A DNA stretch of 64,000 nucleotides from Bdellovibrio bacteriovorus W (lineage in GTDB: Bacteria > Bdellovibrionota > Bdellovibrionia > Bdellovibrionales > Bdellovibrionaceae), in assembly GCA_000525675.1 (NCBI GenBank), contig CP002190.1, positions 434,001 through 498,000 on the forward strand. Reading direction: 5' to 3'. Under the pieces are notes generated by a model. That model did not search any database. It was given only the letters and a program-made list of their open reading frames with translations, and was not told where the DNA came from. Below are positions 39,984 through 51,253 of this stretch, piece by piece. Position numbers and translations under genes: made by a program. The first letter of the stretch is position 1. Every line of letters begins with the position of its first letter.

Positions 39984-40159
39984 AACCTCAACAGGGCTTC
40001 AGTGTATTTCGTGGGCAACGGCCTCTCAAGTCCAGTCACTCTCGAAGACATATTGTGAGACGCAATTTTTTGCGATCGTGTATTTTGAGTCAAGAATGTG
40101 AATGTGAGTAGTTGATCGTTTGTTTAAAATTGTAGAAGTGGGGTAAGTGTGGACGTCGA
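39984..40159. other. chromosomal flank left of the integrated element
   Basis: No credible gene. It holds the promoter region of the barrel gene and ends at the left attachment repeat. Confidence 0.4.
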
Positions 40160-40212
40160 ATTTTAGACATAAAAAAAGCCGACTCTATGGTCAGCTTTTT
40201 TATTTGGTGCCC
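40160..40212. repeat. left attachment repeat (attL)
   Basis: The first 41 bp (40160-40200) are identical to 51062-51102; three differing bases (TAT against AGA) are followed by nine identical bases (TTGGTGCCC). The repeat includes a terminator-like stem and the last eight nucleotides of the tRNA-Leu acceptor, without the rest of the tRNA. Confidence 0.85.
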
Positions 40213-40875
40213 GTTAATCGACGAATATCGAAAAGCTATCATCGAAATAAGTCAGAGATAAACGTCGATCTCGCTAAATGATTGCAGGAGACGGGATGGA
40301 AAAATACCTTATTAGTAACTCAGCATTATTAGTTCCGGTGCTAGTGATTTAGAGCTATATCTTGTCATATCTAGTGGGAAAAATATTGCGGCGCGCTGTT
40401 TTGGGGCGCGGAGAATTTCGTCATCATTTTTTGTAAACTTACTTAAGATCAGTGAGTGGATTTTTTAAAAAAGAGCATTTTCGTTAGTCCCAAATAGTAC
40501 CAATTAGTCACAGAACGTCCCAATTAGTCCCAACTTATCCACATTTTTAAGAGATAAATTTAAAATTTTCTAAAAATATTAAACGTCTTTAAACCCATGA
40601 TTGGTATAGGTTTAAAGATGTTGTGATGTCTTTTTGGAATACTGCTGCTCATCATTTAGGCAAAACAATTTAACGGTTGAAGAGTATTTTGAAATACATA
40701 GAATCTTTGGTCGGAAGGTGAGTAGAAAAAGAAAAGGAGGCTGTACAGACAGGCTGACGCAACCCCCCTCCCAAATGCTTAACTCAAAAGTACTCAAGGG
40801 TGGCGAATGCATTCAAGTTATTTTTTAAATTAGTGAGCTAAGACAGCCCGCATGAACCATACCCAGGAGGAATAT
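40213..40875. other. 660-bp gene-poor left end of the element
   Basis: Holds the origin-like repeats (below), an 18-codon ORF (40296-40352) with GGAG upstream that may be a leader peptide, and a 64-codon ORF (40634-40828, TTG start) judged doubtful. In the circular form the first 49 bp would supply the end of the serine recombinase gene (stop at 40259-40261). Confidence 0.5.
40485..40590. repeat. origin-like locus: five 10-bp repeats, DnaA box, AT-rich stretch
   Basis: Units begin at 40485, 40495, 40505, 40515 (degenerate) and 40525 with consensus TAGTCCCAAT, an exact 10-bp phase that puts them on one helix face. TTATCCACA (40535-40543) is a perfect DnaA-box consensus. A/T-only DNA follows for about 40 bp. 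Iterons, DnaA box and melting region in this order are typical of oriV in iteron plasmids. Confidence 0.65.
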
Positions 40876-41394
40876 ATGGGTTCCGTTAAAAATCTTTTAG
40901 TCCATCAGGCAGCTGAAGGATTAATTGTTGAAATGAAAAAAAAGAATCGTCTTCAACGCAGAGAAGGTACGAAAAGAGACATCGAATACTTTACGATTAG
41001 TAAAATCTTTGATGAGGATAACAGTATTGTAATTCGCGCGATGATGAGTGGTCCTAACTTTAAAGATATGAGATTTGAAGTTATAAAATCCGATGTCGGT
41101 ATCGAATTAATTTTAATTGCGGGAGGAGGAAGAGGGTTGTCTCAAGCAATTGAAATCGTCGAAACAGAGGTGGGTCTTCTCTATAAGGCAGTGCTTAGTC
41201 GTCCAGCTCCTGGTACGCCAATTAACAAAGACAATTGGGATGGGTACTACATGGAAAGTCGAAATGCCGGACCTAAGAGATTGTTAGACTTAGAGAGAGC
41301 GATTGCTTCGGGCATTGTTTCTGCGGATTTCGCAAAACAAGCATCTGAATGGGGATTCTCCATATATGAGACATTCCCAAAAGAAAAAATCTAG
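40876..41394 (+). CDS. unknown element protein
   Basis: A 172-residue soluble protein; ATG at 40876 has AGGAGG at the right spacing while the ATG at 40852 does not. A charged N-terminal helix is followed by a mixed alpha/beta core (MRFEVIKSDVGIELILIAGGGRG). No family recognised; convergent with the regulator genes to the right. Confidence 0.65.
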   Translation: MGSVKNLLVHQAAEGLIVEMKKKNRLQRREGTKRDIEYFTISKIFDEDNSIVIRAMMSGPNFKDMRFEVIKSDVGIELILIAGGGRGLSQAIEIVETEVGLLYKAVLSRPAPGTPINKDNWDGYYMESRNAGPKRLLDLERAIASGIVSADFAKQASEWGFSIYETFPKEKI

Positions 41395-41401
41395 AGAAAG
41401 A

Positions 41402-41421
41402 GGGGGGGAGTTCTTCCCCCG
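41402..41421. terminator. G/C hairpin between convergent genes
   Basis: A G7 run (41402-41408) pairs with C5 (41416-41420). The T-run is weak, so termination is plausible but not certain. Confidence 0.4.
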
Positions 41422-41422
41422 C

Positions 41423-41647
41423 TCAAATCGTATTTGTCCAAAAGTCTTTCTTTTCTTTACTTACTGGCTTCATAATAGCGAGAGTTTCTTTACAATCGTT
41501 ACATTCAGCCATAAGTCCTCGGTATCCACTCACAGCCACCGGCACAGATGTAATGATCCTTCTTTTGCAAGACGAACATTGTAATTCTTTGGGAGTGAGG
41601 GCATAGGCTTTGCACCAGTCTTCTAGGTCTGCGATAGGTAGAATCAT
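41423..41647 (-). CDS. small zinc-ribbon protein
   Basis: A 74-residue protein with CSSCKRRI and, 21 residues later, ECNDCKE, forming a four-Cys zinc ribbon. It overlaps the upstream RHH gene by 4 bp. Probably a DNA/RNA- or protein-binding accessory to the RHH regulator. Confidence 0.7.
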   Translation of the reverse strand: MILPIADLEDWCKAYALTPKELQCSSCKRRIITSVPVAVSGYRGLMAECNDCKETLAIMKPVSKEKKDFWTNTI

Positions 41648-41844
41648 TTTTTAACTTCTCCCTTTTCGATTATTGAAATCATGGCCATCTCTAAAAGAGC
41701 CGTTTTAGGAAGTCCCATCTCTTTGGCTTTTTTATCAAAGCCCTTAATCAGTTTTTCTGGAAATCTAAAAGCAGTCATTCTTCGAGAGCCCTTTAGTAAA
41801 TCATGCGACTTGAATTCAGGAACTTTGAATATAATTGTTTTCAT
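41644..41844 (-). CDS. ribbon-helix-helix regulator (CopG-like)
   Basis: A 66-residue protein: strand RRMTAFRFPEKLIKGFDKKAKEMGLPKTALLEMAMISI is the RHH layout (strand, helix A, turn, helix B). ATG at 41844 is taken rather than 41898 because a perfect palindrome ATGTATATACAT (41846-41857) begins right upstream of it, probably its own operator. CopG-type proteins control plasmid replication or maintenance. Confidence 0.7.
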   Translation of the reverse strand: MKTIIFKVPEFKSHDLLKGSRRMTAFRFPEKLIKGFDKKAKEMGLPKTALLEMAMISIIEKGEVKK

Positions 41845-41845
41845 T

Positions 41846-41857
41846 ATGTATATACAT
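41846..41857. promoter_or_regulatory. operator palindrome before the RHH gene
   Basis: ATGTATATACAT is a perfect 12-bp palindrome 1 bp from the start codon; RHH proteins typically autorepress through such sites. Confidence 0.5.
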
Positions 41858-42009
41858 TGTATAGACATAACAAATTTGGCAAGTGTTATCTTGGGCAAAG
41901 GTCCTGCGTAAAAATGTGAATATAAAAATATTTAATGATGTTATTCGGACTGCTTTCTAAGAGTTATCACGCGAGAGTAACTGTTTTCAGTGCTCGATAA
42001 CCTGAACGG

Positions 42010-42027
42010 TGCATGAACTTCCATGCA
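42010..42027. promoter_or_regulatory. palindrome upstream of the XRE gene
   Basis: TGCATG-N6-CATGCA lies in the leader of the HTH gene. Candidate binding site; alternatively GTTATC/GATAAC (41963-41968, 41996-42001) pairs in the same leader. Confidence 0.3.
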
Positions 42028-42094
42028 GGACCAGAACTCACTGCTTGCATCGCTAACTTTAGAACATAAAAATGTGTTTGCAGGTTGGTGAAGC

Positions 42095-42466
42095 GTGAGA
42101 AAGAAAAATAATAAAAAAGAAATTTACAATGAAGAAGAACAAGAACACTGGGGGATACGTCTTCAAGATGTTCTCTCTGAAAAGAATATCAGCCGTCGTC
42201 AACTAGCGAAGACAATAAACGTAGCACCTTCTGTAATCGACTCTTGGGTAAAGGGAGCGACTCCTAATGACCTCAAGGCAGTGAAGCGACTCGCTGATTA
42301 TATGGACTGTTCTTTTTCGTGGCTGTTGACTGGGGAGGACGAGGCAGGCTCTGGCACAACCGTAGCTGAGATGTTTCAGGTAGTACCTTACTTTGATGGA
42401 TATGCGCGTATTCGTATTGATCGACTCATCCCGAGAAAGAGTAAGGGAGCTGGTGAAAGTAAATAA
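42095..42466 (+). CDS. XRE-family HTH regulator
   Basis: A 123-residue protein with GTG start. The helix-turn-helix is RLQDVLSEKNISRRQLAKTINVAPSVIDSWVKGATP (about 23-58), the cro/CI-type domain, with a short tail rather than a protease domain, so not a LexA/CI-type cleavable repressor. A candidate element control switch. Confidence 0.75.
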   Translation: MRKKNNKKEIYNEEEQEHWGIRLQDVLSEKNISRRQLAKTINVAPSVIDSWVKGATPNDLKAVKRLADYMDCSFSWLLTGEDEAGSGTTVAEMFQVVPYFDGYARIRIDRLIPRKSKGAGESK

Positions 42467-42504
42467 TTAGATATATGAAGATACAAGTCTAGGAAAGGGT
42501 ATGT

Positions 42505-42915
42505 ATGGTATTTAATATTTTTAATATTTTTTTTATTTTGTTTTTAGTTGGAGGTTGTACAAACAAGAAAAGTGCTAATACAACCAAAAAAAGAATGAGT
42601 TGCGGAACTTTGAGTACTGCTGATTGTGATAGAATATATGAGTGGTTTGTCGAATATCATTCATATCCAGAGCGGATCACTGGAGTTTGGACTACCTACA
42701 ATAATACAGATGCTAAAGGTGAGAATGTTGCGTTCAGAGAGTTTAAGGGATATTGCAAAGATGCATCCTGGCCCGCAAGTGTATGCCAGAGTAAAGTGAC
42801 AGAGTTTTTAAAGAATTACGAGGCTCAGCTTAAAGTCGAAAACGACGAGGAAGAGGCAAGGCAAAAGCGCGAGGCGGATAAATCGGCAGAGCGAGACAGA
42901 CTGTTGGGATATTGA
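42505..42915 (+). CDS. small lipoprotein of the element
   Basis: A 136-residue protein with lipobox LVGG-C18 (VFNIFNIFFILFLVGGC) and a basic, acidic-tailed soluble domain with four Cys. Follows AGGAAAGG upstream. Unknown function; may modify the surface of the host cell. Confidence 0.7.
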   Translation: MVFNIFNIFFILFLVGGCTNKKSANTTKKRMSCGTLSTADCDRIYEWFVEYHSYPERITGVWTTYNNTDAKGENVAFREFKGYCKDASWPASVCQSKVTEFLKNYEAQLKVENDEEEARQKREADKSAERDRLLGY

Positions 42916-42973
42916 TCTTTCTTAATGTGTTGAGTAAATAATTATATTTCCCGTTAATATGATTGAGGAATTT

Positions 42974-43426
42974 ATGTCTGTATTCTCGTTGATTTTTTCA
43001 ATAGCTTTTCTTGTGGGATATTTTAGTTGTTGGTCATATTTTTTTAAGATGAGCTCTGCGCGCCTTCCTCAATCAATGTGGGCTATAGTTGGAGTTGTCG
43101 TCCCGTTCATTGGCGCATTTCTGGGATGGTATTATATATTAGCTGGTCCTCGTGAAATCGTTGAGCCGACAATTTTGTTCGCAGAACTGACTCGTGCGCA
43201 AATGGTAGACTATGTAGATGAGAAATCTACTGCATCGGTCATTGCAAGTAATAGCGAGTGGTTGAAGAAAAATTGGCATGTCTTGAATGATGTCGAGAAG
43301 CAAGAATGGGTAAAGTCTCGCTGGTCTTCTTTGGTTGAGTTTCTGCCAGAAGTAAAAGATTCTCCGTCATTTATAAATGCTCTTATGAAAGCCGATAAGA
43401 ACTATACCAGAAAAACATCTTCTTAA
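42974..43426 (+). CDS. two-helix membrane protein of the element
   Basis: About 150 residues; two membrane helices near 4-24 and 37-59 separated by a short loop, then a soluble helical tail. ATG 42974 has GAGGA; ATG 42959 is the other option. Not recognised. Confidence 0.65.
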   Translation: MSVFSLIFSIAFLVGYFSCWSYFFKMSSARLPQSMWAIVGVVVPFIGAFLGWYYILAGPREIVEPTILFAELTRAQMVDYVDEKSTASVIASNSEWLKKNWHVLNDVEKQEWVKSRWSSLVEFLPEVKDSPSFINALMKADKNYTRKTSS

Positions 43427-43609
43427 GATTTATACATAGTTATCTGGGCAGAAATATTTTTATAGAAACAAACTGATACGCTAGCCTTCTAACTGCCAAT
43501 AATTAATAGATAGTTTATTCACACAGTTTTGAGCATTGCTTAGAGTTTTATGCACAGGATTTAAGTCTTACTTCCTTAGGCCGATGAAGTTATTGATGTG
43601 GAGGATTCT

Positions 43610-44644
43610 ATGAAAAAGACATCTGTGACTTTGGCAGCAGTAATGGCTCTGCTTTTACAAGGTTGTTTCGACGGAAGTGGTGGATCGGTTGGTTACTTAA
43701 GACCACCGACGAGTGGTGTAGGTGATGGTGGGAGTACACAGCCCCCTACTGATACACAGCCGCCAGAACAACAACCACCAGATAACACGCAAACAGATTT
43801 CGTAGCAGTAGCTTGGGTTTACGGTAACGATTTTTCCGACTGGGATAACACACCACCGGAAGAAATTAAACATTTAGGATTCTCGAACACTGGCACAGTT
43901 ATGCGCTTTAGTGGTCCGTTGGGGTCAACACTATACACAGAGTCAGGTCGTATTTGTAAGAATTTAACCTCAACAAGTTCACTGTATTCTGATGGATATT
44001 GCACGTTCGACCCACTTCCGAAAGATCCGATCCATGCTTCACTGCACATAGAAGTAGATGGAGAAACACTTTACGTTAGAGCTACTATTAACGGTAAAGA
44101 GTTAGTGAAGAACATAGGTAAGATGTATTTCACTAATAGAACGACCTATGAGATTTCATCAGTTAACCCAGGTCTCAATGAATTAGAGCACGGAGTTAAT
44201 ACTCCAGGACCATTTGATAAATTTGGACGTTATATAAGTTTTAAGGCAACGAACGTAGTTACATCGCAGATGGTTTTTAGAACCATTGCACACGTTAATG
44301 AGGGAACTTGTTTTAGTGACGGTGTAGTTGAGAAGATAGAAGACTTAAGAGAGAACGATAGTTGGGCGCAGTATGGGTTCAAGTATGTTACTGTCAACGT
44401 CTCTGATTTATCTTACAGGGGGTTCGCGTGTACCTTACTTACACCACCTTTTTATTATGCGGCGGGAGTTGAACAGAACTCATTATATTTTGAGCATCAC
44501 GTTCGACTTTTAGATAGCCTTATCCCAAGTTTCGGAAAATCAGAAATTTCAAATAGAGTTCCTATGGGTGATGTTAACTTTATTAAAGAATATGCGTTAG
44601 CAACAGATCATGGGTGGGGCGTAATGGTTACCTACGTTAAATAG
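43610..44644 (+). CDS. Pro/Thr-linker lipoprotein of the element
   Basis: A 344-residue lipoprotein with lipobox LLQG-C19, GGAGG before ATG 43610, a Gly/Pro/Gln/Thr linker (about 25-65), then a beta-rich domain with scattered Cys. Could be a surface-exposed cargo protein. No family recognised. Confidence 0.7.
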   Translation: MKKTSVTLAAVMALLLQGCFDGSGGSVGYLRPPTSGVGDGGSTQPPTDTQPPEQQPPDNTQTDFVAVAWVYGNDFSDWDNTPPEEIKHLGFSNTGTVMRFSGPLGSTLYTESGRICKNLTSTSSLYSDGYCTFDPLPKDPIHASLHIEVDGETLYVRATINGKELVKNIGKMYFTNRTTYEISSVNPGLNELEHGVNTPGPFDKFGRYISFKATNVVTSQMVFRTIAHVNEGTCFSDGVVEKIEDLRENDSWAQYGFKYVTVNVSDLSYRGFACTLLTPPFYYAAGVEQNSLYFEHHVRLLDSLIPSFGKSEISNRVPMGDVNFIKEYALATDHGWGVMVTYVK

Positions 44645-44658
44645 AGCAGAAAATAATA

Positions 44659-44703
44659 GGGGCCACAGAGAGCGAACGTGAATCAGCCCTCGCTATGGCC
44701 CAA
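44659..44703. terminator. possible hairpin between convergent genes
   Basis: GGGGCCACAGAGAGCGA pairs imperfectly with TCGCTATGGCCC across 14 nt; no T-run on the plus strand, so termination is uncertain. Confidence 0.3.
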
Positions 44704-44706
44704 CGC

Positions 44707-45096
44707 TTATAAAGCTGGGGCCAACTTTATAAGGCCCTTTAAAAGCCAAGGTATTGGATATTTCGGATCATGCAGGACAAGAAGGCGACCATTGAGTATA
44801 TAAGCTACCTTCAATCGCGCTGAATCTCCTTTTTTGTTGGTCACGGAAACGATTTCATCAGATTTTACTTTGAACGATTTCAGCGTTGTTGTTACTGCTA
44901 GTATAACTTGAGATGTCACAATAGGACGCTTTGTATATTCATTGAGTGGTACTAAAAGTAGTCCGCCCTCAGAAATACTTTGCACCATAAAATCAGTCAT
45001 GATGCCACTTTGGGTAGAAACACTGACACGCTCTCCTTCAGAGATATGTCGAAAAGTGAGAGGGTCTTCCCACTGTACTTTAGCTAAAGATTTCAT
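44707..45096 (-). CDS. small protein with PilZ-like strand pattern
   Basis: A 129-residue protein. The central MVQSISEGGLLLVPL resembles the PilZ D-x-S-x-x-G strand-turn, but the RxxxR c-di-GMP motif and the D are missing, so binding is doubtful. It lies 16 bp downstream of the tyrosine recombinase gene. Confidence 0.5.
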   Translation of the reverse strand: MKSLAKVQWEDPLTFRHISEGERVSVSTQSGIMTDFMVQSISEGGLLLVPLNEYTKRPIVTSQVILAVTTTLKSFKVKSDEIVSVTNKKGDSARLKVAYILNGRLLVLHDPKYPIPWLLKGLIKLAPAL

Positions 45097-45112
45097 GATT
45101 AACCTTTCGTTA

Positions 45113-45874
45113 TTAGAAATTATCTAGTGCCTTAATGGCTTCGTCTTTGACTCCAGCAAGTGATAGATGCGTATAAATCTGTTGAGCATTTGAGTTGGGA
45201 GAGTGCCCGCATAAAACGGCACGCTGATCTTCAGAAAGTCCTGCCTCTGCTAGCTTGGTAGCAAATAGATGACGAAGAAGATGTGGGTTTATTTTAACGC
45301 CGGATTTTTCGCTATAGACCTTTGCAATCTGCTGAATCCGTCGAGATGAGAACTTAGTTCTGTTAACTGATTCAAAAAGGTATCTATTGTTACGGCCGGA
45401 TAAATATAGTTTCAAACTTTCTTTCAGGTGATTCCCAAAAACAATGACTCGATCTTTTCCTCCTTTTCCTTCTTTGATAAAGGCTGTGTTGTTAGAGAAA
45501 TCAATTCGAGCAACCTCTAGTGAGCAGAGTTCTGATACTCGCAGTCCAGTTCCTAAAAGAACTTGAAAGAGGAGCTTGTGGGGCGGATCACTGATAGTGG
45601 AAAAGAATCTTTCAAGGTCCGCGTTGGTTGGTAGCTCGATCAGTTTATTCTTATAGCTTGGGGCCTCGATGCGACATCGGGTTCTCACGTCCCGGAAGAT
45701 CCGCTTGAGTTGTTCGTAAGAGAGTTTGTGGCGGTTTACTTCGCGAGCAATAAGTTTTACTAACTGCTCATTCGCATTTTGGATATAGGGCCTTTGTTTC
45801 GTAGATGGCTTTGAGTGTGCGAAACTGGGGTTATTGGTTCTCGTTAAAATAGGTTTGTCTGCATTTGATGACAT
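45113..45874 (-). CDS. tyrosine recombinase (Xer/phage-integrase-like)
   Basis: About 253 residues from ATG 45874 (GGGAG 4 bp before); the ORF opens further upstream (46045) but no ribosome site is seen there. Catalytic residues: R in GTGLRVSEL, K in EGKGGKDRV, H-x-x-R in HLLRHLFAT, H in LCGHS and the nucleophile Y in IYTHLS. The N-terminal SAM-like DNA-binding domain is short. Might act as a dimer resolvase or as the integrase; see the palindrome upstream. Confidence 0.85.
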   Translation of the reverse strand: MSSNADKPILTRTNNPSFAHSKPSTKQRPYIQNANEQLVKLIAREVNRHKLSYEQLKRIFRDVRTRCRIEAPSYKNKLIELPTNADLERFFSTISDPPHKLLFQVLLGTGLRVSELCSLEVARIDFSNNTAFIKEGKGGKDRVIVFGNHLKESLKLYLSGRNNRYLFESVNRTKFSSRRIQQIAKVYSEKSGVKINPHLLRHLFATKLAEAGLSEDQRAVLCGHSPNSNAQQIYTHLSLAGVKDEAIKALDNF

Positions 45875-46021
45875 GAAATCTCCCATTAAGTAATGGCCGC
45901 TTCGCACTTTGTGTAATTCTGCGAAGCGACCTAAACTAGATAAGTTTTTAAATTTGATAAGTGGAGATAAGCAGGCTTTTGTGCGTTGAACTTGGTTGGA
46001 CAACAACCAGCTTTTATAAGT

Positions 46022-46040
46022 CGTTACCAATTTGGTAACG
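46022..46040. promoter_or_regulatory. 19-bp palindrome in the divergent region
   Basis: CGTTACCAA-T-TTGGTAACG is a perfect inverted repeat with a 1-nt centre. A second inverted pair, TTTTACATG (46077-46085)/CATGTAAAA (46116-46124), follows. They sit between the recombinase and the 46214 gene on opposite strands. A repressor operator is more likely than a recombination core, whose arms are usually 11-13 bp. Confidence 0.45.
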
Positions 46041-46213
46041 GTCATTCATCACGCGAACACACTTTATTGTATCGTTTTTTACATGGTGTTTCAACTATTT
46101 TAAAAGTCAAAAAGTCATGTAAAATCAGTATGTTAAGTTGTTGTTTGTAACGCATTTGCTTCGTTGGTTATTCAGTCACGCGATACCCTTGAACTCGTAC
46201 AAATGGAGACCGC

Positions 46214-46819
46214 ATGAGTCGGAAAATAACTAACAAAAGCTCTCAGAAAGAAGCTGAAATCCTGCTTCAAAAAATACAGTTATCCTACAAGAAGACTCTG
46301 AAGTCTTTAATCGAAGTCGGAGGCTACATTGGTCGCTTACGACAAATCTTAACGAGGCCGCAGTTTCAAAAGTCTCTCAAGAGTATTGGGATGAGTGAGA
46401 TACAGGCATCAAGACTTATCAACTTGCATATCCGCTTTAAAGACCACCAAACCGATACGGTCTTAAAAAGTAAGGTGTCTGTTTTATATTTATTAGCGAG
46501 CAGTAAAGCTAATCAGTCAGAGTTTAATCGCCTTGTTGAGGGCCGCTCAGTTGCGATAGAGGGGCAGCGCAAAACTTTACCGAACCTGACAGTAAAAGAG
46601 GCCGTGAGACTGGCAAAACCAGTTTTACGAGCGAAGAGACGGTACGCGGAGGTGTCTATTGATCGCGCCTACATAACAAAGTTGATGGAGGTGGTGGACA
46701 GCACGCAAAGTATATTGGAGCTTCATCAGCGTAATAAATTGAAGAATGGGCCATTCATTAAACTTCAACTAAAAGAGACTATGAGCTGTCTTAAGCAAGC
46801 AGTGGTGCAGTTGCGATGA
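46214..46819 (+). CDS. plasmid/phage-type protein, DUF3102-like
   Basis: A 201-residue basic helical protein. SLIEVGGYIGRLRQIL, followed by SIGMSEIQASRLINLHIRF and VSVLYLLASS, is close to the pattern of DUF3102/ParB-like accessory proteins (a helix, then an HTH-like part). Resemblance only. It overlaps the JAB gene by 4 bp. Confidence 0.55.
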   Translation: MSRKITNKSSQKEAEILLQKIQLSYKKTLKSLIEVGGYIGRLRQILTRPQFQKSLKSIGMSEIQASRLINLHIRFKDHQTDTVLKSKVSVLYLLASSKANQSEFNRLVEGRSVAIEGQRKTLPNLTVKEAVRLAKPVLRAKRRYAEVSIDRAYITKLMEVVDSTQSILELHQRNKLKNGPFIKLQLKETMSCLKQAVVQLR

Positions 46820-47223
46820 CGACTCTTGAAATCAGCAGAAAGTGTTACGATCAAATATTAGCGTGGTCTTTGTCCTATGCTGAAATTGGATTCATCTGCG
46901 CGGGCAGGGAACGCAAGATAACCCACGTCTTTCGTGTACCAAACGTCGCCGACGATACAAGGAACCGTTACAAGTGGGACCAACGCATAAAGAGAGATGC
47001 CATGAGGGAGATTGAAGCTCTGGGCTTAAAGGTGATCGCTGAGGGGCACTCGCATCCAAGCCCTAGGCATGAAGAGCGGCCGTCCCAAGCTGATCTAGAA
47101 TACTTTAGCTTGGGACGGCCTCATATAATTGCTTTTCCTTGTCGAGAAAATATAAGGGGTTGGTTTTTGGGAGGCAATATTCGACAAACCTTGAGGTATG
47201 CTATATCGTTAGTAGTCACTTAA
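46816..47223 (+). CDS. JAB/MPN (JAMM) metalloprotease-like protein
   Basis: A 135-residue protein with the complete JAMM signature: E23 (AEIGFICAG), H78-x-H80 in EGHSHP, and S90-x-x-D93 in PSQAD. Prokaryotic JAB enzymes remove C-terminal extensions or ubiquitin-like tags, or work in nucleic-acid systems (RadC-like). No E1, E2 or ubiquitin-like gene is seen next to it. Coupled to the upstream DUF3102-like gene; 15-bp overlap with the convergent rep gene. Confidence 0.82.
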   Translation: MTTLEISRKCYDQILAWSLSYAEIGFICAGRERKITHVFRVPNVADDTRNRYKWDQRIKRDAMREIEALGLKVIAEGHSHPSPRHEERPSQADLEYFSLGRPHIIAFPCRENIRGWFLGGNIRQTLRYAISLVVT

Positions 47224-48198
47224 AAAGTGAAGGTCATCTTCTGTATTGAACCATTTTTTTGCCCACTGATTAAACCTCTTTCTTAAAGCGTAAGACAGGC
47301 TAGCTTTGCCTGAGTTGATTGTCAGTGGAACTAGGAATTTGCCTATATTGCGATGGAAATTTCTGTGCTTGTTATGTAAGATCCTTGCATTTTGAAAACC
47401 TAAGGCCAGGACATCTTCTTGAAATGTGTTAAACGCAAGAAGATCATTTACACTTTGAGCAGTTGTTTTTTGTAAGTCATAGAATTCTATTCTTTTAAAA
47501 AGTTTGCTTGAATCAATCCATCGTAAGTTGTTCAAAGTTGAAAGATTGAGCGATTTTATTGAAGCTCCCTTTAGTTGAAACTCAAATCGAGTTAAATCTT
47601 CTATTTGTAATTTTTCTTTAGAGGAAGGCTTTCTATATGATGAAAGATTCATACTTCTACTGTTGGTGCGAACCCCCGAAATTCTTCCTTTTTCAAAGTC
47701 TACTTTTCCTTGCATATAAGCGGAGGTACGGCGTTTCCACTTAGCATGTGTGCAGTAGTGGATTAGGGCCGGAGTAATTACTTCTTCGGGACTAGTGAAA
47801 GCAATGTCGAGTCTTGTAACTTTGTGTTGCTCTGAAAGAATCTCTTTCCCAGTAATAGATGAAAGAAAGTCAACATAGGAAGCAAAGCATGGAAAGTCCT
47901 TAGGGTTTAAAGTAATAGAATATTGATAAGAAGAATTGAAACGTGGCCCATCAAATATGGTAAACTCGTGGCCTTGCCATTTAAGGCGATAGCCATCTTG
48001 ATAGGCTCCATTTCTTACTAGATAAAGAACTTCCGCTTCTTTGGTTACAATGGTTTTCTTTATAGTTTTCACTAGTGTCGATTGATAATCAAAATTAACA
48101 ATCGCATTCAATTTTTTGATGTTTTCGAGTTCTTCATAATTCGGGATTTGACGTTTAATACGTGGTGATACATGCATTGTATTGTTGATTGAGTTCAT
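47209..48198 (-). CDS. Rep_trans-like replication initiation protein
   Basis: A 329-residue protein. VTRLDIAFTSPEEV matches the R-x-D-x-A motif and DLTRFEFQLKG the later acidic motif of rolling-circle Rep_trans/RstA-like initiators; a Tyr-rich stretch lies between (NLSSYRKPSSKEK). A catalytic Tyr is not fixed. AAGGAG precedes the start. The family nicks plasmid or ssDNA-phage origins; with the iteron locus 6 kb away either may be the replication system. Confidence 0.55.
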   Translation of the reverse strand: MNSINNTMHVSPRIKRQIPNYEELENIKKLNAIVNFDYQSTLVKTIKKTIVTKEAEVLYLVRNGAYQDGYRLKWQGHEFTIFDGPRFNSSYQYSITLNPKDFPCFASYVDFLSSITGKEILSEQHKVTRLDIAFTSPEEVITPALIHYCTHAKWKRRTSAYMQGKVDFEKGRISGVRTNSRSMNLSSYRKPSSKEKLQIEDLTRFEFQLKGASIKSLNLSTLNNLRWIDSSKLFKRIEFYDLQKTTAQSVNDLLAFNTFQEDVLALGFQNARILHNKHRNFHRNIGKFLVPLTINSGKASLSYALRKRFNQWAKKWFNTEDDLHFLSDY

Positions 48199-48201
48199 AA
48201 T

Positions 48202-48444
48202 TTACTCCTTAGATGATTTACGATTTTTAATTTTTTTAAGAATTCTGATATAGAAACGGCCTTCGATTGCCATTGGGTGAATAACAAATTTTTGTACGCC
48301 TCGTTTTGAGACCATTATATCTGATTTGCATGACCCAAAAGGAAAATACACTCTGTATTCTTTCTTATTGTTGTTTTGGTTAATTTCTTCACGGCAATCT
48401 GTGACATCGACTTTTGCTATAAACGTTATTTTGTTATAATTCAT
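48202..48444 (-). CDS. small protein coupled to rep
   Basis: An 80-residue basic protein; its stop codon lies in the rep ribosome-binding site. Strand-rich (NKITFIAKVDV, KEYRVYFPFG) and Lys-rich at the C-terminus, like ssDNA-binding or copy-control proteins of RCR elements. Not recognised. Confidence 0.6.
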   Translation of the reverse strand: MNYNKITFIAKVDVTDCREEINQNNNKKEYRVYFPFGSCKSDIMVSKRGVQKFVIHPMAIEGRFYIRILKKIKNRKSSKE

Positions 48445-48478
48445 AAACACACCTTTCTTTTATAGTTCGTGGAGAGTT

Positions 48479-48505
48479 GAAGGTGCCTAGGTTTTGTTAG
48501 CATTT
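48479..48505. repeat. left arm of a bipartite inverted repeat
   Basis: GAAGGTGCC-N8-GTTAGCATTT. The reverse complement recurs at 49353-49379 with the same 9 and 10 bp and a different 8-bp centre. A third TTAGCA copy lies near each arm. Confidence 0.5.
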
Positions 48506-48568
48506 AAATAGGGTTTTAATTGCTAATATAACAATTTTTTTCTGCTGTGTTTCATGTGGAGGGCTATC

Positions 48569-49336
48569 ATGACGAAAGAGGCAGCTAAAGAATGGCTAGA
48601 AAGCATACAATGTCGCATCCGAGAAGAGATCGAAGTTGTAAAGAAAGAGCACAGAGTGAGGAGTCAGCGCGAAGCTGCGCTTATAATTTTCCGAAATTGC
48701 AATATAGAAAGTGATGGTTACAAAGCAGGGTTGTTGTCTGGAACTGTTGCTAATAGAAGCTCGAAGAGGAGGGCTATCCCAAGTAAGTATATAAAGAAGA
48801 TAAAGTTCGGAACGATTTCTAGTTTGTTCAAAGAATTTAATGTTGCTTTAGCTGAGTTGAACAGCCCAACTCCTGAGAGTGAGATGTGGCGTGATTACAT
48901 AGAAATTGCCGCTTTCATGGACTCAACAATGGAGGAGTATTTAGATGATTATAAAGGTGATATGACTTTAGCTATGGTGGCAGTATTATATGGGGCATAT
49001 GATGCTTGCCGATCTTTTTTAAATAACCTCGAAAACTCTCATGAGGTGACACTATCTAAGGAGAATGCGGAGAAGTTTAAGGACGCTTTAGAAAAACAAT
49101 GGAAAGGACTGATTTCAATAAAGGGGGAAAATACTCCTAGGTTTTACGTTAGGGAGAGTTTAGCAAAGAAAGCGATTTTGAAGATATATGAGAGTATTGA
49201 TGTTCGCTCTGCTTATGAAGAATTGTTTTGGAACGAATCTAGCCTTTATGTCTATTGGGATTGCCAATATCGAGGGAGGAGTCTCCTTGTTGGACACTCT
49301 TTACGCCAAGGCGAGTTGAAAATCTCGTTTAGTTAG
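48569..49336 (+). CDS. unknown cargo protein flanked by inverted repeats
   Basis: A 255-residue soluble helical protein, ATG 48569 behind GGAGGG. Acidic patches and Trp/Tyr-rich C-terminal part; no motif recognised. It is the only gene between the bipartite inverted repeats and sits in the cargo position between rep and recombinase, where defence or stress genes often lie. Function unknown. Confidence 0.65.
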   Translation: MTKEAAKEWLESIQCRIREEIEVVKKEHRVRSQREAALIIFRNCNIESDGYKAGLLSGTVANRSSKRRAIPSKYIKKIKFGTISSLFKEFNVALAELNSPTPESEMWRDYIEIAAFMDSTMEEYLDDYKGDMTLAMVAVLYGAYDACRSFLNNLENSHEVTLSKENAEKFKDALEKQWKGLISIKGENTPRFYVRESLAKKAILKIYESIDVRSAYEELFWNESSLYVYWDCQYRGRSLLVGHSLRQGELKISFS

Positions 49337-49352
49337 CAAATCTTTTTTAGAG

Positions 49353-49379
49353 AAATGCTAACTTTTCTCCGGCACCTTC
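49353..49379. repeat. right arm of the bipartite inverted repeat
   Basis: AAATGCTAAC-N8-GGCACCTTC. Also GTTAGCA (49332-49338) with TGCTAAC (49356-49362) forms a hairpin that could end the upstream gene. Confidence 0.5.
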
Positions 49380-49386
49380 ATCTGCT

Positions 49387-49566
49387 GTGAAGAACTGCAA
49401 GAATGACCAATCTAATTTGAATAGTTATGATGACTCAGTGATGGAGCTAGAATCCATCACTGAAGTCTTTGCTATTTTATTAAAGTGGGATCAAGAGCTT
49501 GCAGGAGCTTCTAGTAGCAAAAGTGAAAAGTCCAAAAAGGATGAGGAGAAAAGAGATGAAGGGTAA
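49387..49566 (+). CDS. small acidic protein upstream of the serine recombinase
   Basis: A 59-codon ORF with GTG start, C-terminal KSEKSKKDEEKRDEG. Its stop overlaps the recombinase start (GATGAAGGGTAA), as expected for a coupled pair. Small proteins before such recombinases are common, but no ribosome site is seen, so it is a candidate only. Confidence 0.4.
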   Translation: MKNCKNDQSNLNSYDDSVMELESITEVFAILLKWDQELAGASSSKSEKSKKDEEKRDEG

Positions 49567-51253
49567 AGCTTTTATTTTATGTCGAATTTCTGATGTTAAG
49601 CAGGAAGACGGTTACTCACTGGATGCACAAGAGAAGTTTGGGCGTGAGTACTGCAAGAAGGAAGACCTTGAGCTTATTAAAATCTTTAAGTTTATTGAGT
49701 CAGCTAGTAAAATTGGTAAAAGAACTAGGTACGATGAGATGTATCGGGAACTTAAGTCTCTGATGAGAACTTCAAAGGAGGCGGTTCATCTTGTTGTTGA
49801 AAAGCCTGATCGCCTGACACGCAATCTTACCAATAAAGAACAGATGGAAGAGCATGTGATGAAAGGTCATCTGATAATCCATTATTATAAAGATCGTAGG
49901 ATTTTTGATAAGTTTTCTACTCCAGCAGACATCTTTACCGAAGACATGATGGCTACGGTAAGTAAGTACATGGCTAAGAATACCGCTCGCGAGACGATGA
50001 AAGGAATGACAGAAAAAGCAAATCAAGGCTGGTTTCCAGGGCATGCGCCTCTTGGGTATATGAACGTTAGAGATGGGTTAGAGAACAAGCATGGAAGAAA
50101 AGAAGCTTTCATTGCGATCAATCCTGAAGAAAAAGACGGCGTATTAAGAATGTTCGAGTTGAGGGCTCAAGCAAGGCTCTCCTATCAAGCAATTAAGGAT
50201 ACACTCATTGAAGAGCGACGGTTCCCACCTAGTAAGCTAAAGTACCTTCATAAAAGTACAATTGAGAAAACGCTAAAGAATCCATTCTATGGTGGGAGTT
50301 TTAAGTTTAAGGATGTGATTTACCAAGGGAAACATGAATGTTTTGTTCCGGCGAGATGGATTCGTGCTGTTGCGGAAATGGAGGGAGCTGGTGCAAAAAA
50401 GCGACCTATGGGAGTTTTTAGTAATTTTTTAACCTGTGGAAATTCAAAGTGCGGATGCGCAATTCTATATGACCCGAAAAAGAAAACGAATAAAAAGACA
50501 GGCGCCTTCAGGGAGTATAAGTACTATCATTGCTCTGATGGTCGTGGGGTTCATCGTGCTGCGGAAGAGAAGCAGGTCAATGTTTCTGAGGAAATTCTGT
50601 GGGATCAATTTGCGCGTCCAATGCGTGACATTCATATTTCTGAAGCTCTGGCAGACGCAATATCAAAGGCATTGAGAAAGGCTAATGACAAGGCGGTGGC
50701 TGCGCATATGCAGGTAATGGAACAGTATCGTCAAAAAATATTAGTTACAGAGCAAGAAGAGGATGACTTGGTAGAACTCTTAATGAGTGGCGTGATTGAT
50801 AAGGAACTCTTTAGAAGAAAAACTGAAAAAACTAAAGAGGAGCGCAGAAGGTATGAAGCTCTATTAGAAAAAGGACAAGAGGCTATCACGAACGTTTTCT
50901 ATGTAAATTCAGAAAAGATTCTCGAACTTTCTAAGAATGCAGAAACACTGTGGAAATCAAGAAGTGAGCAAGAACGGTTGGATTTCTTGAAACGAGTACT
51001 CTCGAACCAAATGTTAGAAGGCTCAAATCTAATATACGAATTAAAGAAACCATTTTCAGCGATTTTAGACATAAAAAAAGCCGACTCTATGGTCAGCTTT
51101 TTAGATTGGTGCCCCGGGAGGGACTTGAACCCCCACGCTTGCGCACTAGATCCTAAGTCTAGCGTGTCTGCCAATTTCACCACCGGGGCAACACCGTTTT
51201 TCAGAAGACTATTGATAGCGCAAAAATGCGCTATCATGCAAGCAAAATCTTAG
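49556..51253 (+). CDS. large serine recombinase
   Basis: ATG 49556 (GAGGAG 7 bp before) gives about 565 residues; the ORF opens upstream without a site. Resolvase domain: catalytic S12 in CRISDV, DRLTRN; recombinase domain with PADIFTEDMMATVSKYMAKNTARETMKGM; zinc ribbon CGNSKCGCAI...YYHCS (about 318-348); coiled-coil tail. The last 64 codons are attR plus the antisense of tRNA-Leu (see findings), so the true C-terminus in the circular form is different. Probably the integrase, adjacent to its attachment site. Confidence 0.85.
   Translation: MKGKAFILCRISDVKQEDGYSLDAQEKFGREYCKKEDLELIKIFKFIESASKIGKRTRYDEMYRELKSLMRTSKEAVHLVVEKPDRLTRNLTNKEQMEEHVMKGHLIIHYYKDRRIFDKFSTPADIFTEDMMATVSKYMAKNTARETMKGMTEKANQGWFPGHAPLGYMNVRDGLENKHGRKEAFIAINPEEKDGVLRMFELRAQARLSYQAIKDTLIEERRFPPSKLKYLHKSTIEKTLKNPFYGGSFKFKDVIYQGKHECFVPARWIRAVAEMEGAGAKKRPMGVFSNFLTCGNSKCGCAILYDPKKKTNKKTGAFREYKYYHCSDGRGVHRAAEEKQVNVSEEILWDQFARPMRDIHISEALADAISKALRKANDKAVAAHMQVMEQYRQKILVTEQEEDDLVELLMSGVIDKELFRRKTEKTKEERRRYEALLEKGQEAITNVFYVNSEKILELSKNAETLWKSRSEQERLDFLKRVLSNQMLEGSNLIYELKKPFSAILDIKKADSMVSFLDWCPGRDLNPHACALDPKSSVSANFTTGATPFFRRLLIAQKCAIMQAKS
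51062..51114. repeat. right attachment repeat (attR)
   Basis: Partner of 40160-40212. It contains the tRNA-Leu terminator (GCTGAC/GTCGGC stem read on the minus strand) and the tRNA CCA end, and lies within the serine recombinase reading frame. Confidence 0.85.
51070..51102 (-). terminator. tRNA-Leu terminator
   Basis: On the minus strand GCTGAC...GTCGGC (one G-U pair) is followed by T7. A copy sits in attL, so the tRNA keeps a terminator whichever copy it is joined to. Confidence 0.75.
51107..51189 (-). tRNA. tRNA-Leu (anticodon UAG)
   Basis: On the minus strand GCCCCGG at the 5' end pairs with CCGGGGC before the encoded CCA. The anticodon loop CTTAGGA gives UAG (plus-strand CTA at 51153-51155), decoding CUA. 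An extra arm is present, as in class II leucine tRNAs. Length 83 nt. It is the integration target of the element. Confidence 0.95.

Follow-up and report, generated by a model that had tools for sequence, protein, structure and literature searches.

We describe here an integrated element of Bdellovibrio bacteriovorus W, located in a 64,000-nucleotide stretch of the chromosome (hereafter the window; bases 434001-498000 of the 3.0-Mb single-contig genome) and inserted at the 3' end of tRNA-Leu(UAG), the single tRNA in the window. It is very probably a rolling-circle-plasmid-like integrative element in which a large serine recombinase (large serine integrase; LSR) recombines the element's attachment site, attP, with the tRNA 3' end. 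The LSR gene itself spans attP, so that on integration its last ~17-18 codons stay at the far end of the element while antisense tRNA sequence supplies a new tail, and it is from this layout that we infer the consequences of the swap. A first-pass annotation had proposed an integrated plasmid-like element at this tRNA, which is also our best reading and is supported by relatives; empty-site, synteny, and family comparisons refer to other genomes (G numbers) and loci (L numbers).

An integrase gene that runs through its attachment site

The LSR gene starts at an ATG at 49556 that is preceded by GAGGAGA and overlaps the open reading frame (ORF) of a 59-aa protein (p59). Its frame is not closed inside the element and continues through the att site and along the antisense strand of the tRNA to 51253, with a tail that begins WCPGRDLNPHACALDPKSS. 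The protein matches PF00239 (50.9 bits), PF07508 (23.9 bits against a cut-off of 21.1), and phrog_95, with similarity to YokA (2.8e-22) and A118 (6.7e-13), and in the family alignment Arg29 and Ser31 of the catalytic domain and Cys313, Cys318, and Cys345 of the zinc ribbon are invariant. It has the hallmarks of a large serine integrase, namely a PF00239 domain with the active-site Ser, PF07508 together with zinc-ribbon cysteines, and a 5-bp shift between attP and attB.

Comparison with relatives shows that the serine integrase integrates the element, that the core is 9 bp long, and that the integrase gene spans the attachment site; by the same evidence, integration is a replacement of the final ~17 codons of the LSR with antisense tRNA sequence. 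The predicted circle junction joins TTGGTGCCC to GTTAATCGACGAATATCG and would be read as ...CAGCTTTTTAGATTGGTGCCCGTTAATCGACGAATATCG, and the restored full-length LSR would end ...SMVSFLDWCPLIDEYRKAIIEISQR. Compared with shuffles, the hairpin at the LSR 3' end has a z of -2.6 in the window (element side), -3.5 in G002, and -5.3 in G023; lying in the LSR 3' coding region on the tRNA strand, this terminator hairpin leaves the tRNA with a terminator after integration.

Recombination core and boundaries of the element

The 53-bp direct repeat that had been reported at the tRNA end is confirmed in both copies (40160-40212 and 51062-51114, 50/53 identical), and its 41-bp exact part occurs at just two sites in the window, with 0.00 expected in shuffles. 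The first-pass annotation had taken the repeat for the recombination site and had left the choice between the two recombinases open. The full 53 bp are ruled out as the core, since TTTTTTATTTGG of the left copy fits the G013 empty site and TTTTTAGATTGG of the right copy does not, so that exchange must occur rightward of the 41 bp. The core is the 9-bp TTGGTGCCC, the CCA end of the tRNA (40204-40212 and 51106-51114), and the 41 bp to the left of the core are a duplicated tRNA terminator. TGGTGCCC has two occurrences in the window (40205 and 51107).

Junctions in relatives lead to the same core. G002 carries a 14.9-kb LSR element at tRNA-Glu, where the terminator passes through TGGCGTTC into the element, whereas in G006, G007, G005, and G017 the native terminator runs straight into TGGCGTTCCC, leaving clean empty sites. 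What these junctions have in common, and thus the core, is a stretch of 8-9 nt counted from the CCA end, and read in the same way the window core is TTGGTGCCC. Relatives lacking an intact tRNA-Leu, which the first-pass annotation had named as evidence that would speak against its proposal, were not encountered: the tRNA-Leu/gcvH pair is retained in 23/23 further genomes from this genus, and 0/23 have an intact LSR next to it. Chromosomal content past this site varies between most genomes, which marks the site as a hotspot.

The terminator of tRNA-Leu(UAG) is ATTTTGGACATAAAAAAAGCCGACTT... in many genomes of the genus, and further LSR codons precede it in G019, G013, G003, and partly G010. The duplicated 41-bp terminator looks like the scar of an older LSR that now acts as a terminator. 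At the tRNA-Leu(UAG)/gcvH locus as a whole (L085-L108), the terminator appears LSR-derived across much of the genus. The genome that contains the window has another LSR remnant (G000:C1:239654-239932; L002/L078), which runs into tRNA-Ser(GGA). A match at 40043-40222 was rejected as an LSR remnant, the sequence upstream of the repeat not being LSR-like, and left-flank synteny was dropped as proof of the left edge of the element, the neighbouring gene sitting elsewhere in relatives.

Attachment-site geometry

When far element arms are aligned on TGG (the antisense of CCA), TCGAAC with at least 5/6 matches lies at offset 24 in 7 elements, other tested offsets yielding no more than one, and the same scan of the reverse strand of the far arm gives none at offset 24. 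The tRNA T-arm copies of TCGAAC lie at offset 19. In the window, the T-arm motif of tRNA-Leu, TTGAAC at 51125-51130, is the proposed attB zinc-domain motif, and its candidate attP counterpart is listed in Table 1. Rutherford et al. (PMC3783163) reported that serine integrases read a zinc-domain motif whose attB copy lies 5 bp nearer the centre than the attP copy (11-19 versus 16-24), and the 5-bp shift seen here is a close fit to this published A118-family geometry. Other LSR clades from the same order carry a mirrored GTTCG at -19 in the left arm in 11/26 cases, which fixes the centre at ~+5.5, at a distance of 24 from the motif end in attP and of 19 in attB. In the present clade, no left attP arm was found that mirrors the right arm, although one is present in those other clades.

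On this geometry, the crossover would fall within TTGGTGCCC, ~5 bp inward of the T of TGG, and the zinc domain of the integrase would read the T-arm TCGAAC in attB and, in attP, a copy displaced outward by 5 bp. Such a reading of the T-arm would explain how a single integrase family comes to have many tRNA and tmRNA targets. The same hexamer is also found within the LSR gene, where the Ser-Asn of the LSN motif is encoded as TCG AAC in 38/43 genes, against ~6% predicted by codon use; in most cases its distance upstream of TGG is exactly 87 or 96 nt.

tRNA targeting across the family

An LSR was present in 12/40 genomes in a first search, and larger alignment-based searches led to 60 LSR loci. 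Nearly all LSRs with sufficient flank in the first search ran into a tRNA or tmRNA 3' end, and phylum-wide 49/60 family LSRs adjoin one, which excludes chance overlap. The TGG is an in-frame Trp codon in 48 of these 49, the exception, at tRNA-His, having an internal stop. Among the targets are Leu, Ser, Arg, Asp, Glu, Ala, Phe, and Asn tRNAs as well as tmRNA. With 17 targets spread over the 38 LSRs of a tree, 24 target changes are required, indicating that the reading phase is retained through switches. A like frame is seen in Legionella adelaidensis (tRNA-Asn), Neochlamydia (tRNA-Tyr), and gut and IMG/VR contigs, with one exception in a different phase.

Other PF07508 LSRs did not serve as a negative control, as 20/27 overlap a tRNA too; the trait is wider and not specific to this clade. 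These clades, from the same order (L140-L169, L225-L244), overlap tRNA or tmRNA 3' ends in different reading phases and have the mirrored GTTCG left arm.

A split gene and its restored C-terminus

When the LSR, taken as far as TGG, is joined to the far arm, the gene is obtained in its circle form, and the resulting C-termini are alike among divergent elements (WCPLIDEYRKAIIEISQR in the window; WRSRWDEYRTYCIDQITG, WCTQIDDLRTACIDYAI, WRREVRNLRTASIAWAA, WRTLVDDFRTACTIAL, and others elsewhere). A restored W...DEYRTxxI followed by a stop is found in 16/19 candidate ends, with Arg at codon 9 in 16/19 candidate ends and in 15/15 tabulated ones. Among the 15 tabulated tails, 7 of which were found by a search demanding TCGAAC where the tail is encoded and 8 of which were not so selected, all have Leu, Phe, or Tyr at codon 8 and 13 have Thr at codon 10. 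Hydrophobic residues are conserved at codons 5 and 8, and the stop lies 5-9 residues past codon 10 in 11/15 (binomial P ~6e-6, geometric null).

In three cases the tail is present without any such joining. In a tandem array in G095 (L069 132-13762, tRNA-Ser), the full LSR of the distal copy ends WRREVLNLRTEAIEWATA at the copy junction, and the proximal, truncated copy, of which only the last part is present, meets tRNA-Ser. Phage contigs L251 and L253 have unjoined native tails, WWRLSSNVRTLKNG... and WWSNREVARTLLIP..., respectively. Both are phage-like contigs of 40-43 kb with the same integrase type and an unoccupied attP inside the gene.

We propose that full-length integrase would be made from the circle (or from a tandem array), and that the tail-swapped form may be inactive or changed, which would make integration self-limiting. 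Excision would then need full-length LSR from a second copy together with a directionality factor. A broader proposal, plausible but put forward tentatively, is that bacteria have self-splitting serine integrases. In these, attP would lie within the gene, integration would require the native C-terminal helix (W...DEYRTxxI) and exchange it for antisense tRNA sequence, and the inserted enzyme would stay off until the gene is made whole by a second copy or tandem array; because the T-arm sequence is universal, any tRNA could be an attB.

Alternative readings

Several observations weigh against an element that integrates, and is limited, in the way set out above. No directionality factor was identified, the integrase may be active without any need for the tail, and confidence in the model of the Rep-like protein is low. 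The left flank in the window is non-syntenic with relatives, the left edge being placed solely by motif geometry. As for the tail, three candidate ends are without it (G032a, G125, and G217b), the Arg in the seven tails found with the TCGAAC requirement is there partly by selection, and the tail motif overlaps the proposed zinc-domain site, making part of the tail conservation DNA-level.

This last point bears on a reading that we consider unlikely but that deserves weight, in which the LSR reads through attP by accident: conservation would be that of the DNA motif, the tail peptide would be functionless, and integration would not alter activity. GACGAnTATCGAAC is indeed both the DNA site and the DEYRT codons, the conserved LSR domain stops before the Trp, and the LSR promoter and catalytic part are intact after integration. 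Yet the tail Arg is retained via CGA, CGG, CGC, and AGA, conservation extends to the stop position and to hydrophobic residues at codons 5 and 8, and the reading frame is retained through ~24 target switches.

It is improbable, though conceivable, that the tail swap is instead an active switch, with the antisense-tRNA-tailed LSR a distinct working form that, for example, favours excision or repression. In every integrated LSR the frame stays open into the tRNA, and an analogous attP-in-gene switch, the integration-dependent immunity of mycobacteriophages (PMC9262239), changes a protein C-terminus as here, but in that system the protein changed is the repressor and the integrase is a tyrosine integrase. 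The integrated tails, moreover, differ with each tRNA and in length (9-48 residues), and no common motif beyond the tRNA sequence was seen when the family tails were compared.

There is very little to recommend the XerA-like tyrosine recombinase (45113-46045) as the enzyme acting at the tRNA, with the LSR a bystander. Tyrosine integrases classically target tRNA 3' ends (PMC4383910) and the protein retains its catalytic residues, but it lies mid-element and has tblastn homologues in just 4/33 other loci (one of them weak), whereas in these elements the LSR invariably sits at the tRNA, and the attP geometry and 9-bp core fit a serine integrase. We therefore rejected it as the integrase on position, patchy homologues, and attP geometry, and regard it as a probable accessory. 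Finally, it is scarcely credible that homologous recombination or segmental duplication produced the 53-bp repeat and that there is no mobile element: the copies share 41 identical bp and the left flank is non-syntenic in relatives, but the offset-24 attP arm, the LSR at the tRNA, the gene content common to other LSR elements, and the clean empty sites for the sister element all speak for integration.

Other genes of the element

The genes listed in the first-pass annotation (a serine recombinase, a tyrosine recombinase, a Rep-like gene, and a regulator) are all present by Pfam and PHROGs and, for the Rep-like gene, by Foldseek matches of a low-confidence model, and its remark that phage and conjugation genes are absent agrees with our scans of the element ORFs, in which none were recognised (Table 1). 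Pfam, PHROGs, and NCBIfam scans of these ORFs recognised no relaxase or conjugation gene, a filamentous phage (phiRSM-like) identity was set aside as no phage gene was recognised in the Pfam/PHROGs scans, and the window element has no second serine recombinase (DsiA-like). The Rep-like protein has no Pfam match, Rep_trans reaching just E 0.51 in one relative, and 4cwe and 4cij are the sole significant Foldseek matches of its model (pLDDT 58; E 1e-5 to 1e-4, TM 0.33-0.52). Rep homologues lie upstream of the LSR in G028, G052, G117, and the G082 element. Inside the element GC skew is up and GC slightly down relative to the flanks. A 17-bp near-perfect inverted repeat (AACGTCTTTAAACCCAT / ATAGGTTTAAAGATGTT) at 40582-40622, beside the 10-bp direct repeats, is a candidate origin or regulator site.

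A second G002 element (L245; G002:C1:1246000-1265900) has the HTH regulator, p129, Xer (in two copies), p201, JAB, and Rep in common with the window and no full LSR; its nearby tRNA-Arg may be coincidental, and no LSR was found at that tRNA-Arg. Other LSR elements carry other cargo, a set of genes in the G061 element looking by eye like a type I restriction-modification system.

Table 1. Features of the element and its target site, in window coordinates
Feature	Position	Strand	Basis
attL, chromosome side: displaced tRNA terminator (apparent final codons of an older LSR gene, ILDIKKADSMVSF) and core	40160..40212		Repeat comparison
Integrated element, 10,902 bp, core to core	40205..51106		TGGTGCCC at both ends; attP arm at left end; like geometry with clean empty sites for G002 element
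Severed LSR 3' end, 18 codons WCPLIDEYRKAIIEISQR and stop; joined to LSR only in circle or tandem array	40205..40261	+	16/19 candidate ends conserved
TCGAAA, candidate attP zinc-domain motif, 5 bp further from core than tRNA copy	40228..40233	+	Published geometry
Five degenerate 10-bp direct repeats (TTAGTCCCAA), iteron- or Rep/RDF-site-like (RDF, recombination directionality factor)	40484..40533	+	Sequence
Two small proteins	41423..41898	-	Weak zinc-ribbon and ribbon-helix-helix matches, below cut-offs
Cro/CI-type helix-turn-helix (HTH) regulator	42095..42466	+	PF01381, phrog_4
Cargo: small lipoprotein-like and membrane proteins (42505-44644, +), 129-aa protein (44707-45096, -)	42505..45096		No strong family match
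XerA-like tyrosine recombinase (PF00589), catalytic residues present	45113..46045	-	Pfam; NCBIfam
201-aa protein	46214..46819	+	58% identical in second G002 element
JAB/MPN-domain protein	46816..47223	+	PF14464
Candidate Rep_trans-like rolling-circle initiator, 329 aa	47209..48198	-	Foldseek 4cwe 1.1e-5, 4cij 6e-5; pLDDT 58
82-aa protein beside Rep	48202..48450	-	ORF
260-aa and 59-aa ORFs just upstream of LSR	48554..49566	+	ORFs
Large serine integrase; native part to 51106, then 48 codons of tRNA antisense and beyond	49556..51253	+	ORF, Pfam, PHROGs
TCGAAC at Ser-Asn codons of LSN motif	51002..51007	+	DNA-level conservation across family
attR: element-side terminator, core TTGGTGCCC, and tRNA 3' end	51062..51114		Repeat and hairpin analysis
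Rho-independent tRNA terminator inside LSR 3' coding sequence	51075..51102	-	Hairpin folding
tRNA-Leu(UAG), target gene	51107..51189	-	ARAGORN; offset analysis

Relation to known systems

A118/SPbeta-type LSRs share the domain order and the 5-bp zinc-domain shift with the present family but use unrelated chromosomal sites. Their attP is not known to lie inside the integrase gene. Integrative conjugative and mobilizable elements are defined by relaxase or conjugation genes, none of which was recognised among the scanned ORFs of the window element.

In earlier accounts, serine integrases either are not known to use tRNA genes as targets (PMC4383910) or do so rarely (PMC3218068), with one Mycobacterium group and phiRSM listed as serine-type tRNA cases by Ghinet et al. 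(PMC3218068). Both phiRSM (core TGGCGGAGAGGGT) and the Mycobacterium actinomycete integrative and conjugative elements have a serine recombinase at a tRNA 3' end, as here. They differ, however, in that phiRSM relies on a serine recombinase of the small type, which in the related phage phiRs551 is 196 aa long, and has its attP between genes, and the Mycobacterium elements use a single tRNA-Leu and are conjugative.

The archaeal suicidal integrases (SSV1/pTN3/pT26-2, PMC8371274) likewise have attP inside the integrase gene and are split on integration, and in that review self-splitting integrases are called exclusively archaeal. Those enzymes are tyrosine recombinases in which the split removes the catalytic part, whereas here the enzyme is bacterial and serine-type, and only the last ~17 codons are split off, with the catalytic domain staying on the large fragment.

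The closest precedent is DsiB of Dehalococcoides (PMC3146451, 2011), a CcrB-like LSR whose 3' end overlaps attL into the tmRNA gene and which occurs in tandem arrays; McMurdie et al. (PMC3146451) proposed that it may have its full function only when circular or when another island lies next to it. The window LSR has the same overlap of its 3' end with att into an RNA gene. DsiB, in contrast, uses ssrA only, with the crossover in the T-loop, a 20-bp repeat, and a partner, DsiA, in the same operon, and the passages of that report dealing with DsiB mention neither a conserved restored C-terminus nor a T-arm motif with a 5-bp shift. Here we find many tRNA targets (tRNA-Leu in the window, some relatives using tmRNA), an 8-9-bp core, and no DsiA in the window. 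Within the literature that we reached, the conserved tail would be the first sequence support for the proposal of McMurdie et al. on DsiB, in a different and far broader family; the TIGER database may hold further serine-tRNA cases.

Implications

At the level of sequence, this serine integrase family contradicts both the statement that serine integrases do not, or only rarely, target tRNA genes and the statement that self-breaking integrases are limited to archaea. It suggests a simple rule for attB choice, a CCA end together with a T-arm, and integrases with tRNA-gene sites that can be predicted in this way would be useful for genome engineering. The split gene may also provide a built-in lock on the direction of integration, and it makes directly testable the suggestion made for DsiB in 2011, that such a gene is whole only in the circle.

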